Assembly: GCA_022865265.1 (NCBI GenBank)
Contig: JALIDO010000003.1
Location: 1-34,868 of the forward strand
DNA: 34,868 bases
Direction of reading: 5' to 3'
Origin: Candidatus Nanohalarchaeota archaeon QJJ-5
Lineage (GTDB): Archaea > Nanohalarchaeota > Nanosalinia > Nanosalinales > Nanoanaerosalinaceae
Shown here piece after piece: positions 7,219 to 26,520 of the stretch. A model generated the notes under the pieces. The model saw only the letters and a program-made list of their open reading frames with translations. It was not told where the DNA came from and ran no database searches. How positions within the stretch are numbered: the stretch's first letter is position 1; every line of letters starts with the position of its first letter. The position numbers and the translations under genes were made by a program.

Positions 7219-7504
7219 CGGTATCCGCCTCCAGGGCCTGTTTCACAACAGCTGTTACATCGGATGGCCTGAACCCGACGAGTTTCGTATTGGTATCGAG
7301 ATTGTCTTTGATGGTCTGGGTCATGGTCTGTTCATCCATATCGGTCTTGCATCCTTCCAGTGCTGTCGTGATATCGTCCAATGCTGTTTCAGGATAGATG
7401 AAAAAATCACCATGTAGGCTCACGGCGGTGATTTCTCCGTTCGCAGCCACATCGGCACGGAGTAGTTTCCCGTCAGGAACCTTGTACTCGGCGGTCTTGG
7501 TCAT
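7208..7504 (-). CDS. lplB: lipoate-protein ligase C-terminal-domain subunit
   Basis: A 98-residue protein matching the free-standing LplB subunit: it corresponds to the C-terminal domain of bacterial LplA and is needed for lipoate adenylation in the split archaeal enzyme. The central segment (a Gly-Asp-Phe-Phe-Ile-Tyr-Pro-Glu strand-turn followed by a helix with a Leu-Glu-Gly end) is typical. It is the first gene of the lplB-lplA pair. A TATA-like box (reverse strand, 7526-7535) is centred 27 bp before the ATG, so the mRNA is probably leaderless. The family match rests on short similarity plus the neighbouring lplA. Confidence 0.8.
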   Translation of the reverse strand: MTKTAEYKVPDGKLLRADVAANGEITAVSLHGDFFIYPETALDDITTALEGCKTDMDEQTMTQTIKDNLDTNTKLVGFRPSDVTAVVKQALEADTDEQ

Positions 7505-21694: not shown

Positions 21695-21830
21695 AGACCG
21701 ATGCATCGATGAACGAGGTCGGTTCACCATAGAAGGTCGTGCCACATTGCATGCACCTGAATTGAAGGTTTTCAGGGTCTTTTTCCTCGATATTGGCTGT
21801 ACCGCACTGTGGACACGTATTCATGGTCAT
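21693..21830 (-). CDS. zinc-ribbon mini-protein (45 aa)
   Basis: A short reverse-strand frame from ATG 21830 (or ATG 21824) to TGA 21693 encodes 45 residues. Two well-spaced zinc knuckles are visible, CPQCGTANIEEK and RCMQCGTTFYGE, giving Cys-x2-Cys-x16-Cys-x2-Cys, a rubredoxin-like zinc ribbon. Such mini-ribbons occur as free proteins in archaea and often act in transcription or RNA-protein contacts; this one has no assignable job. A hairpin with a T-run follows the stop, supporting a real transcription unit, and an AT-rich stretch at 21850-21860 is centred about 27 bp upstream. Confidence 0.7.
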   Translation of the reverse strand: MTMNTCPQCGTANIEEKDPENLQFRCMQCGTTFYGEPTSFIDASV

Positions 21831-21937
21831 TGGTACCACCCGTACGTGTCAATCGATATTCATGGAGGTTCCTGGATTTAAAGATTATCCTGGATATAAC
21901 CGGTGTGTTGAAAAATACTGCTCGTGGTGGTATATGT

Positions 21938-22837
21938 ATGCGAGCTGATGCGGTACTTGATGCTCTTGGATATGACTATGACCATGTGGAACAGGATGAA
22001 CCGACTGAGGCCTGTGATGCGGCCGCGGACCAGCGTGGTCTGGAGACCGGCCAGATTGTCAAGAGTCTGATTGTCAGTATCGATGGGCAAGACTATCATC
22101 TTTTGGTACCAGGTGACAGGCAGCTCTCGGAACGGAAGGTCGGTTCGTATAGGCTCGTGGAGCCTGATCGGTCGACAGAGTTGACAGGCTGTGAACCAGG
22201 CACGGTACACCCATTTGCATCTGAGCTTCCGCATCGTGTGGATTATCGGTTGTTCCTGAATGAAGAGGTATCGTTCACTGTCGGGAATCGACAGGAGGGC
22301 GTCATCATCGATGCTGAGCGGTTCCGTGATGCTTTGGATGATGAGGATTTTGAATGGGTCGAGGATGATCTGGTCTCGTTCACCGAGCAGGATGTCCGTG
22401 CTCTTGATAGCTATGAACTAGATGAAGAGACTGCAACGTTCATCGCGAAGGAAGGATACACTCGTGTCTTTGAACAGCTTGTTGATGATGTCTCGATCAG
22501 TGATCTCGTGATGGCGATCGAGTCACTACACCGTGAGGAGGTGTCAGTTTCCCCGATGCTGGTGGATGAGCTCATCGAGCGGGCTGAGGGAGAGACCCAC
22601 ATGCAACGGCTTGCTGCTCATCGTGCAGAACATGGGGAGTGGCCGGAAGACGTCTCATATGATCTTGATGCTATCATTACAGAGATCCTGACGGAGCATG
22701 AAAATGCTGTCCAGGATTACAGAGATGGAAAATCTTCGGCTGTGAACTTCCTGATGGGGCAGGTGATGAATGAGACACAGGGTCAGGCTGATCCAGGATC
22801 GGTCAGGCGTGAACTTATGTCCCGGCTTGAGGATTAG
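21938..22837 (+). CDS. YbaK-type aminoacyl-tRNA editing domain fused to GatB/YqeY tail
   Basis: A 299-residue two-domain protein. Residues 1-145 match the YbaK/ProX deacylase fold that hydrolyses mischarged tRNAs: lysine K42 (GQIVKSLIV), a GTVHPFASEL loop (88-97) in the place of the usual G-x-V-S-P, and the closing GVIIDAERF strand. Residues about 150-299 match the C-terminal GatB/YqeY helical tail that binds the elbow of tRNA: YELDEETATFIA, FEQLV, SPMLVDELIE, and YRDGKSSAVNFLMGQVMNETQGQADP. It could remove wrong amino acids from a tRNA recognised through the tail; the target is unknown. ATG 21938 is supported by the TATA-like tgaaaaata (21909-21917) 26 bp upstream. Confidence 0.82.
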   Translation: MRADAVLDALGYDYDHVEQDEPTEACDAAADQRGLETGQIVKSLIVSIDGQDYHLLVPGDRQLSERKVGSYRLVEPDRSTELTGCEPGTVHPFASELPHRVDYRLFLNEEVSFTVGNRQEGVIIDAERFRDALDDEDFEWVEDDLVSFTEQDVRALDSYELDEETATFIAKEGYTRVFEQLVDDVSISDLVMAIESLHREEVSVSPMLVDELIERAEGETHMQRLAAHRAEHGEWPEDVSYDLDAIITEILTEHENAVQDYRDGKSSAVNFLMGQVMNETQGQADPGSVRRELMSRLED

Positions 22838-24405: not shown

Positions 24406-24597
24406 ATGGTCTATTCTGATCAAGACGATATCGTTTTTGGTGGGATCATCGTTCTGTGTCTGGTTGTGATCGTGGGCTTTATCGCGAACCAGATGGGGAT
24501 GCCGGCCCATGCCTTTTTCGGACCACCGGGGCTTGTCCTTGTACTTTATTCAGGTCTTGTGTATGTTATCGGGGTCTATATCGGGAAACGGGCTTAA
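24406..24597 (+). CDS. small two-helix membrane protein (63 aa)
   Basis: A 63-residue protein made almost entirely of two membrane helices (about 9-27 and 38-57) with a short GMPAHAFFGPPG turn between them. No family recognised. ATG 24406 is preferred over ATG 24391 because the shared AT box is centred 27 bp upstream. Its stop overlaps the convergent DUF1122-like gene by 4 bp (TTAA). Confidence 0.6.
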   Translation: MVYSDQDDIVFGGIIVLCLVVIVGFIANQMGMPAHAFFGPPGLVLVLYSGLVYVIGVYIGKRA

Positions 24598-25127
24598 AGT
24601 TGGTCTAGTGCCTGTTGTGCTAACCTCTGACACTTCTCAGGTCCATACGGGTCATCGAGAAATGTTCTGAGATCGGACCTGAGATCTGTAAGATGATCTG
24701 TCCCGCGTGGTTTGTTTGCCTGGAGTTTCTGTCCGCCTTCACGCCATCCTTCTGCAATGTACCAGTCTTTGAACCAGGTGAATCCATTGATGAACAGAAG
24801 ATGGCCGATCGGTGTTGCGGGTGGCGGGATATCGATATTAAGTGCTTCTGCCGTCAGGCTATCGGTATACTGTATCATGATATGGCTGCCTGGCACGAGT
24901 TGGTCGGCACAACAGGTGATGAGGTCTATATCATCGTCATTGTCTGGTGACAGTGTTTGATCGGGCACAAGTTCAATCCATGGTTCGATGTACCTGGTTT
25001 GCTCACGAAACGTTACCCGATATGTGCTATCGTTCCGTGCTATGGTCATGACTGTCGTTTTTCGCTTGCGTTCGGTGATCGTTGTCTCGTACCCCAGGTC
25101 TTTCAGTCGATCAACAAGTGGATCCAT
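24594..25127 (-). CDS. DUF1122-like archaeal protein
   Basis: A 177-residue soluble protein. The C-terminal half holds the strongest family mark: residues 100-140 contain IPPPATPIGHLL, GFTWFKDWY and EGWREGGQKLQ, which match my memory of the archaeal DUF1122 family (proline pair, Gly-Phe-Thr-Trp-Phe-Lys-Asp-Trp-Tyr, then E-G-x-x-E-G-G-x-K-L-Q). No function is established; a GNAT-like fold has been suggested for relatives, but I cannot confirm it here. Start ATG 25127 is preferred over ATG 25139 because the AT box ctttttac (reverse strand, 25151-25158) is centred 28 bp from it. Confidence 0.7.
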   Translation of the reverse strand: MDPLVDRLKDLGYETTITERKRKTTVMTIARNDSTYRVTFREQTRYIEPWIELVPDQTLSPDNDDDIDLITCCADQLVPGSHIMIQYTDSLTAEALNIDIPPPATPIGHLLFINGFTWFKDWYIAEGWREGGQKLQANKPRGTDHLTDLRSDLRTFLDDPYGPEKCQRLAQQALDQL

Positions 25128-25301
25128 CGTTCTGACCATGGTATCTGGTTGTAAAAAGCATTATCCTTGACTTGTTCGTGATCGGGCAGTTAGTCAGGGT
25201 GCCTTTCTGTGAACATATGTACTTCATCAAGAACCCTGTCTGGTCTGATCACTATCGCTCGGCTGTCAGAACTTTTATATATCGTTCATGAGAAATTGAG
25301 G

Positions 25302-25407
25302 TCTGCCTTCTGTGGGGGGAAGGTTCGAAAGGGTTGTGCGAGAGGGAGGTTTTTGACGCACCTCATCTATTGTCCCTCTTGCCGTTTCCTACCCTTTCTC
25401 TTTTTCA
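25302..25407 (+). ncRNA. candidate structured small RNA gene, about 105 nt
   Basis: An excellent TATA box, cttttatata (25272-25281), has no protein start at the right distance; transcription should begin near 25302. The following sequence holds three nested or adjacent helices with perfect or near-perfect pairing: 25306-25310 with 25319-25323 (5 bp), 25327-25334 with 25391-25398 (8 bp, all Watson-Crick), and 25340-25347 with 25373-25380 (8 bp, one G-U), plus a small apical stem, 25347-25350 with 25360-25363. A T-run (25401-25405) ends it, touching the convergent trm1 stop. It does not match 5S, SRP, RNase P or tRNA as I know them, nor an H/ACA or C/D layout. The small overlapping frame at 25209-25421 looks spurious. 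Confidence 0.5.
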
Positions 25408-26520
25408 ACATTCTTCGATGATCGTTCTGATATGATCGAGTGGCGCATTTGTTCTGATACCAGTATCTTCGAAATGAGAACGGACTGCATTGTATCCTCG
25501 TTCTTCAAAGGCCCTGAGAAGGTCTTCGATAGCAGGTGCAGGTACATTGTAGGTGGCTGCAAGGTCATGAGTGTCATAGTACGGTGTTGATATCGGTATT
25601 TCGGTGATGAGCCTATCCAAAAGAGCTGTAGCATCATCGAACCCGCGTTCGGTGCAGTTGTCTCGTGTCTGTTCGATGAACTCTGTTCGTCCGAGATGAC
25701 CGATCCAGGTCGGCCCGATTCTGTTCAGGTCCGTCTCGCAGTAAGGACATGTTGTTTCTTCTACGTTTGGTTCCATGGTCCGATAACAGCAATCAGGGCA
25801 GGCCAGGATATAGCCGATCTTGTCCAGTGACCGGTTAACCCCTTTCTTCGATTCACGGACAGTCCCATTGAGACGATAGTAGTGTTTCTGTGCAAAACTG
25901 AGCTGGGGTCTGAATACCATGTCTCGTCTCGCAAATGCTTCAAAGACCGCCTTGATCAATGTCCGGATCCCGACCTCGTGCTGGAAGCTTGTCTTGTGCA
26001 TCCATGTTCCGTACCGGCGTCGACAGGTCTTCGTATAGCTGCCACAGAGGGTGGCAAGGTCTGTCGCTGTGATACCGAGAAAGGCTTCATGATTGGCTCC
26101 TCGAGCCGCTGCATCAAGGAACGGGACTGGTGATCCGAAGGGATCGATATCGATGATATCGTATTGCCCGGCTTCGGTGGTCATATGGATAACCGCATCA
26201 GTGTGTTCGATATCGATATCCATGCCCGCATTGAGTTCATTGTTCTGTTCCATGTTCTCGATCGCATTTGGATTGGTGTCTGTGGCCTTGATAGATTGTA
26301 GACCAGTGGTCTCGTTCGCATACCGGAATGCACGGACACCAGATGCGGCCAGAGCATCGATCAGAGAAAGTTCTCGCTCCTGTCCATCGATGTATGATTG
26401 GACCGCTGCGACGGAGATATCTCTGTTCAGGATCATATCTGTATTGTAGAAGACCTCATCATCCGCTGTTGGTTCTTCTGCCGGATCGAGGTCGAGGCTG
26501 ACCGAGCGTTCGTCTATCAT
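25405..26520 (-). CDS. trm1: tRNA (guanine-26 N2)-dimethyltransferase
   Basis: A 371-residue Trm1, which methylates G26 at the junction of the tRNA D and anticodon stems, using S-adenosylmethionine. Marks: DEVFYNTDMILNRDISV near the start, the SAM-binding LIDALAASGVRAFRYA (52-67), the acidic ATDTNP strand, the catalytic DPFGSP (126-131), and a zinc site in the C-terminal domain (CPDC and CPYC). The length fits the archaeal enzyme (about 370-380). It follows the nucleotidyltransferase gene by 7 bp, so the two share a transcript. Confidence 0.94.
   Translation of the reverse strand: MIDERSVSLDLDPAEEPTADDEVFYNTDMILNRDISVAAVQSYIDGQERELSLIDALAASGVRAFRYANETTGLQSIKATDTNPNAIENMEQNNELNAGMDIDIEHTDAVIHMTTEAGQYDIIDIDPFGSPVPFLDAAARGANHEAFLGITATDLATLCGSYTKTCRRRYGTWMHKTSFQHEVGIRTLIKAVFEAFARRDMVFRPQLSFAQKHYYRLNGTVRESKKGVNRSLDKIGYILACPDCCYRTMEPNVEETTCPYCETDLNRIGPTWIGHLGRTEFIEQTRDNCTERGFDDATALLDRLITEIPISTPYYDTHDLAATYNVPAPAIEDLLRAFEERGYNAVRSHFEDTGIRTNAPLDHIRTIIEEC

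Follow-up and report, generated by a model that had tools for sequence, protein, structure and literature searches.

In our study, a small intergenic gap of an archaeal genome was found to contain what is probably a discrete small RNA gene of about 104 nucleotides on the plus strand (25303-25406), as judged from its sequence and from comparison with the rest of the genome. We lean towards the fuller reading, in which the putative gene would be a stand-alone intergenic sRNA gene with its own promoter, two hairpins and a T5C end. The predicted BRE/TATA belongs to no protein gene on the plus strand, and a T-stretch that resembles a terminator is present after the structured part. The initial annotation had described a complete RNA-gene layout at this place, and the description was borne out by the own-genome promoter profile, the strand preference, the T5C tract and the fold statistics.

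The window, i.e., the whole stretch of 34,868 nucleotides that was analysed, is contig 33 of an archaeal MAG of 701 kb, which is about 80% complete. The candidate sits in a 265-nucleotide gap, with trm1 on one side and the DUF1122 gene on the other (Table 1). The nearest relatives by Trm1 were Ca. Nanoanaerosalina NHA24 and Nanohalarchaeota QJJ-9, and therefore the MAG is placed in the Nanohaloarchaeota, in the family of Ca. Nanoanaerosalina. Elsewhere in the window, the ORF 21809-22837 was found to contain an aminoacyl-tRNA editing (YbaK-like) domain and a GatB/Yqey C-terminal domain in a single reading frame, which is an unusual combination.

Table 1. Features of the gap and of its two neighbouring genes, with positions in the window.
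Feature	Position	Strand	Basis
Predicted BRE and TATA box (TCAGAACTTTTATATA), orphan promoter facing right	25266-25281	plus	consensus match and own-genome profile
Candidate small RNA, about 104 nt, predicted start about 25303-25305, end in TTTTTC	25302-25406	plus	fold, promoter spacing
Hairpin 1, 7 bp, loop GUGGGG	25305-25324	plus	MFE and centroid; includes CCUUC/GAAGG
Hairpin 2, with 8-bp base, internal loop and 10-bp stem	25327-25398	plus	folding
Apical loop, 25 nt, mostly unpaired, with UUUUUG and CACCUC	25348-25372	plus	unpaired probabilities
Terminator-like T5C tract; the trm1 stop codon of the opposite strand overlaps it	25401-25406	plus	sequence
Second hairpin, H/ACA-like by shape, possibly the DUF1122 leader	25173-25252	minus	fold z -2.05; post hoc descriptor match
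trm1, tRNA (N2,N2-dimethylguanosine) methyltransferase, converging neighbour	25405-26520	minus	PF02005, E 2.9e-93
DUF1122 gene, far side of the gap	24594-25139	minus	PF06557, E 1.9e-26

The strongest evidence for the putative sRNA gene is the rank of its predicted promoter within its own genome. The archaeal BRE/TATA consensus is cRnAAnT-TTTAWATA, and the plus-strand segment 25266-25281 matched it at 13 of 13 positions, the runner-up in the window reaching 11. The TATA box itself (TTTATATA, 25274-25281) was the sole exact match on both strands of the window. The match to the BRE is an independent check, since the BRE was absent from the reasoning of the earlier reader. The own-genome profile, which is independent of the consensus, was trained by expectation-maximisation on 322 gene starts of the MAG with free upstream DNA, and about 654 kb of the 701 kb was used. 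These gene starts were preceded by A-rich (-36 to -32), T-rich (-31 to -27) and A-rich (-27 to -23) stretches, a pattern that reads as BRE plus TATA box at a spacing indicating mostly leaderless genes. The segment 25266-25281 lies outside the 60-nucleotide upstream stretches used for training and did not train its own profile; it scored 11.66 bits and ranked 27th among 1.306 million positions. For comparison, the SRP RNA gene of this MAG has a promoter of 8.21 bits at normal spacing, and the promoters of tRNA genes scored up to about 9.6 bits. Orphan promoter-like sites are not rare in the MAG. Among the 55 sites of at least 11 bits, a called gene start was present within 120 nucleotides in 28 and farther away in 7, and none was in range in the remaining 20. 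About 27 of the 55 strongest sites are therefore found with no called gene start within 120 nucleotides, and such a site is no proof of transcription.

The TATA box is quasi-palindromic, and it might instead serve the minus strand and drive the DUF1122 gene (start codon at 25139), the plus-strand hairpins being untranscribed or noise. Toward DUF1122, the same box scored 8.95 bits (within the top 299 of the 1.306 million positions) and was the highest-scoring site within 160 nucleotides upstream of that gene. The start predicted from it, 25251, falls at the base of the minus-strand hairpin 25252-25173, which would form the first 80 nucleotides of a DUF1122 leader of about 112 nucleotides. However, so long a leader stands against the genome-wide signal at -31 to -24, which marks mostly leaderless genes, and the plus reading exceeds the minus reading by 2.7 bits, i.e., about 6-fold. 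The segment 25266-25281 is a strong site that is better oriented rightward. Use of this promoter in both directions is possible, and we consider it unlikely that DUF1122 is what the box serves and that the plus-strand hairpins are mere noise.

For a rightward transcript, both ends can be predicted. Archaeal transcription usually starts about 23 bp past the TATA box (PMC4247193), and therefore the start of the candidate is expected at 25303-25305, which coincides with the beginning of hairpin 1. The T-run that had been noticed at the end of the candidate was found at 25401-25405, within a TTTTTC that starts two bases past the last helix. The terminator between genes in Haloferax volcanii is a T-stretch ending at C, and 95% termination was measured in vivo with T5C (PMC7237163). 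Of 229 genes of the MAG, 20 have T5C in the 60 nucleotides past their end, 19 have T5A and 3 have T5G. The T-run within the apical loop (25350-25354) is T5G and is a less likely stop, since T5G is rare at gene ends of the MAG. T5C is frequent in the window (37 sites).

Folding of the candidate recovered the helices listed in the initial annotation. The MFE structure was the same as the centroid (-39.5 kcal/mol, z -2.67, with 1 of 200 shuffles equally good), and z was -2.95 for 25302-25405. Three helices of 5, 8 and 8 bp had been described; all of them exist, but the 5-bp helix is part of a 7-bp hairpin and the third helix has 10 bp, not 8. The base helix of hairpin 2 (GAAAGGGU/ACCCUUUC) is formed by 25327-25334 with 25391-25398, a perfect 8 bp at a distance of 56 nucleotides, followed by an upper helix (GCGAGAGGGA/UCCCUCUUGC) of 25338-25347 with 25373-25382, which has 10 bp including one G-U. 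The closing 8-bp helix had been regarded as unlikely by chance, and this was overstated. By our own arithmetic, about 0.36 perfect 8-bp inverted repeats within about 90 nucleotides are expected per 265-nucleotide gap, and comparable 9-nucleotide repeats at 89% are also present in the gap. What is above chance is the nesting of the 8-bp and 10-bp helices, with the promoter and the T-run in register.

The fold of the candidate ranks among the best 2% in the window and is only moderately unusual by itself; its z was reached by 12 of 656 tiled 106-nucleotide segments (both strands of the window) and was better than that of all 25 other promoter-plus-T-run segments tested. The 12 segments speak for a chance origin, in which a random promoter-like site lies near a GC-rich inverted repeat in the gap and no functional RNA is made. 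The same is true of the lack of conservation in the BLAST and covariance model searches, and of the choice of this spot by the earlier reader for these very features. Against it stand separate features in register, namely the rank-27 promoter, its spacing to hairpin 1 and the T5C after the last helix, and we hold a coincidence of this kind to be improbable.

The hairpin might also act on the minus strand, in the 3′ untranslated region of trm1, for stability or 3′-end formation. It begins 7 nucleotides past the trm1 stop codon, the candidate region also folds when read on the minus strand (z -2.1), and the minus strand after trm1 has no T-run of 5 before 25157-25153. However, the plus fold is better than the minus fold by 9 kcal/mol, owing to G-U pairs, and archaeal intergenic terminators are chiefly T-stretches (PMC7237163). 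A role in the trm1 3′ region is quite unlikely in our view, and the plus-strand sRNA gene is the preferred reading.

BLAST against 60 genomes found no homologue of the candidate, giving short matches only, many of which fall in the T-rich end, and a covariance model built on the single sequence had the candidate as its sole match in 40 genomes. No match was present in IMG/VR, plasmids or phages. As no homologues were found, covariation contributes no evidence. Conservation in relatives, to which the initial annotation had looked for support, was thus not seen, in a weak test: the nearest relatives searched, which are of the same family, have about 46–50% Trm1 identity and different genes flanking trm1, and a homologue that keeps only the structure may escape the first pass of the search program. 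The interpretation in the initial annotation is supported in part: the RNA-gene layout is retained, and novelty as a structured RNA is not backed by any homologue or covariation. The claim that the sequence fits no known RNA family agreed with the Rfam covariance search, which gave no match at the gathering cut-off, nor at E values up to 5 on 25100-25500.

Known RNA types were compared with the candidate and rejected. ARAGORN gave no tRNA or tmRNA match, and the GGTTCGAA in the candidate forms no T-arm. The candidate falls well short of the length of RNase P RNA and gave no match to it; the family model did not find RNase P RNA in the MAG assembly. The SRP RNA gene is present elsewhere in the MAG. 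As to proteins, the largest ORF across the candidate has 70 aa and a GTG start codon that lies upstream of the promoter, and no plausible ORF was found. The candidate is similar in size to archaeal C/D box sRNA, but by eye both strands lack the boxes or have them at the wrong spacing, the plus strand having no C (RUGAUGA) and D (CUGA) in the required order. It resembles archaeal H/ACA guide RNA in its two stacked helices (8 and 10 bp) parted by an internal loop. In H/ACA RNAs the ACA lies 14–16 nucleotides from the target uridine (PMC7991803), whereas the candidate, with a 3/8-nucleotide pocket, has no ACA at that distance and none after P1; TCTCTTTTTC stands after the stem. Nor is there a kink-turn or kink-loop atop the upper stem (P2), where the loop is GG...UUG with no tandem GA.

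On the minus strand, the neighbouring hairpin (25252-25173) contained P1 of 6 bp (GUGAUC/GAUCAC), a pocket, P2 and a GA/GA kink-turn-like motif, followed by ACA two bases past P1. Its predicted transcript would begin at 25251 and share the TATA box of the plus-strand candidate. By this H/ACA-like shape, the hairpin could be read as an H/ACA guide RNA whose target would lie in 23S rRNA close to E. coli position 2605, and its guides ACUG/GACC fit CAGU-UU-GGUC in the 2605 region of the G008 23S. This fit is to the G008 23S; rRNA genes, including 23S, were not found in the MAG, and the 23S of G002, from the same family, differs at the guide target (CCAGAUCGGUU). The H/ACA descriptor was fitted to this very hairpin; it rarely matched elsewhere (two further sites in the window, nine in a relative of 1.05 Mb). 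P2 has one mismatch and one bulge, no homologue of the hairpin was found, and Nop10 (PF04135) was above the cut-off in 0 of 5 family genomes, with Cbf5 in 4 of 5. No clear H/ACA guides for 2605, 1940 or 1942 were found in the complete relative G007. We strongly doubt the guide RNA reading; a structured DUF1122 leader is the simpler one. Considered by itself, Nop10 was not found above the cut-off in G000-G004 (the family of the window) but occurs in every other genome of the order except one, and it may possibly have been lost or have strongly diverged in these five genomes.

The plus-strand candidate plausibly belongs to a known and ordinary kind, the orphan archaeal intergenic sRNAs. Those of Haloferax, Thermococcus and halite communities (itsRNAs) are intergenic and 50–200 nucleotides long, have their own BRE/TATA and a T-stretch end, and are structured and mostly unconserved (PMC7002113, PMC4983044, PMC4247193), and the candidate is alike in each of these. 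BRE-TATA promoters are borne by archaeal orphan sRNAs (PMC4247193), and expressed intergenic sRNAs number in the hundreds in halophile communities (PMC7002113). In contrast to them, the candidate is known from sequence alone, and its host is a DPANN symbiont. Our literature search found no dedicated sRNA study of DPANN symbionts.

In the proposed mechanism, the BRE/TATA promoter would start plus-strand transcription at about 25303-25305, the RNA would form two hairpins, one short and one long, the latter with an open apical loop of 25 nucleotides, and transcription would stop at TTTTTC (25401-25406), giving an RNA of about 104 nucleotides. Given that the gene is real, there is an even chance in our judgement that the sRNA is a base-pairing regulator. 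The exposed loop could then pair with mRNAs in trans, and its CACCUC could cover Shine-Dalgarno-like GAGGUG sites. Alternatively, the sRNA would be fully complementary to a trm1 transcript running past the stop codon and may act as a 3′ UTR antisense RNA.

Other orphan promoters were also found. An orphan promoter of 12.9 bits was present at 1566 on the minus strand of G000:C45 (L198), followed by a two-hairpin RNA of about 75 nucleotides (about 1544-1470), which ends in TTCTTTTT and has CTGTGGGGGG in common with the candidate; no Rfam match was over the cut-off. On G000:C7 (L165), promoters at 7236 (plus, 13.7 bits) and 8208 (minus, 12.8 bits) had no called gene at the usual spacing, and the sequence downstream of both folds well and has no Rfam match. 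It is very unlikely, but conceivable, that the candidate represents a lineage-specific structured RNA class of the Nanohaloarchaeota with two hairpins and a strong own promoter, to which the G000:C45 orphan might belong; the link between the two would lie in the 75-nucleotide length, the two hairpins, the shared CTGTGGGGGG and the T-run end. The own-genome promoter profile offers a means of finding more orphan RNA genes in a MAG without RNA data. Hardly any work exists on small RNAs of DPANN symbionts, and the candidate, if transcribed, would be a concrete and easily probed example of them.
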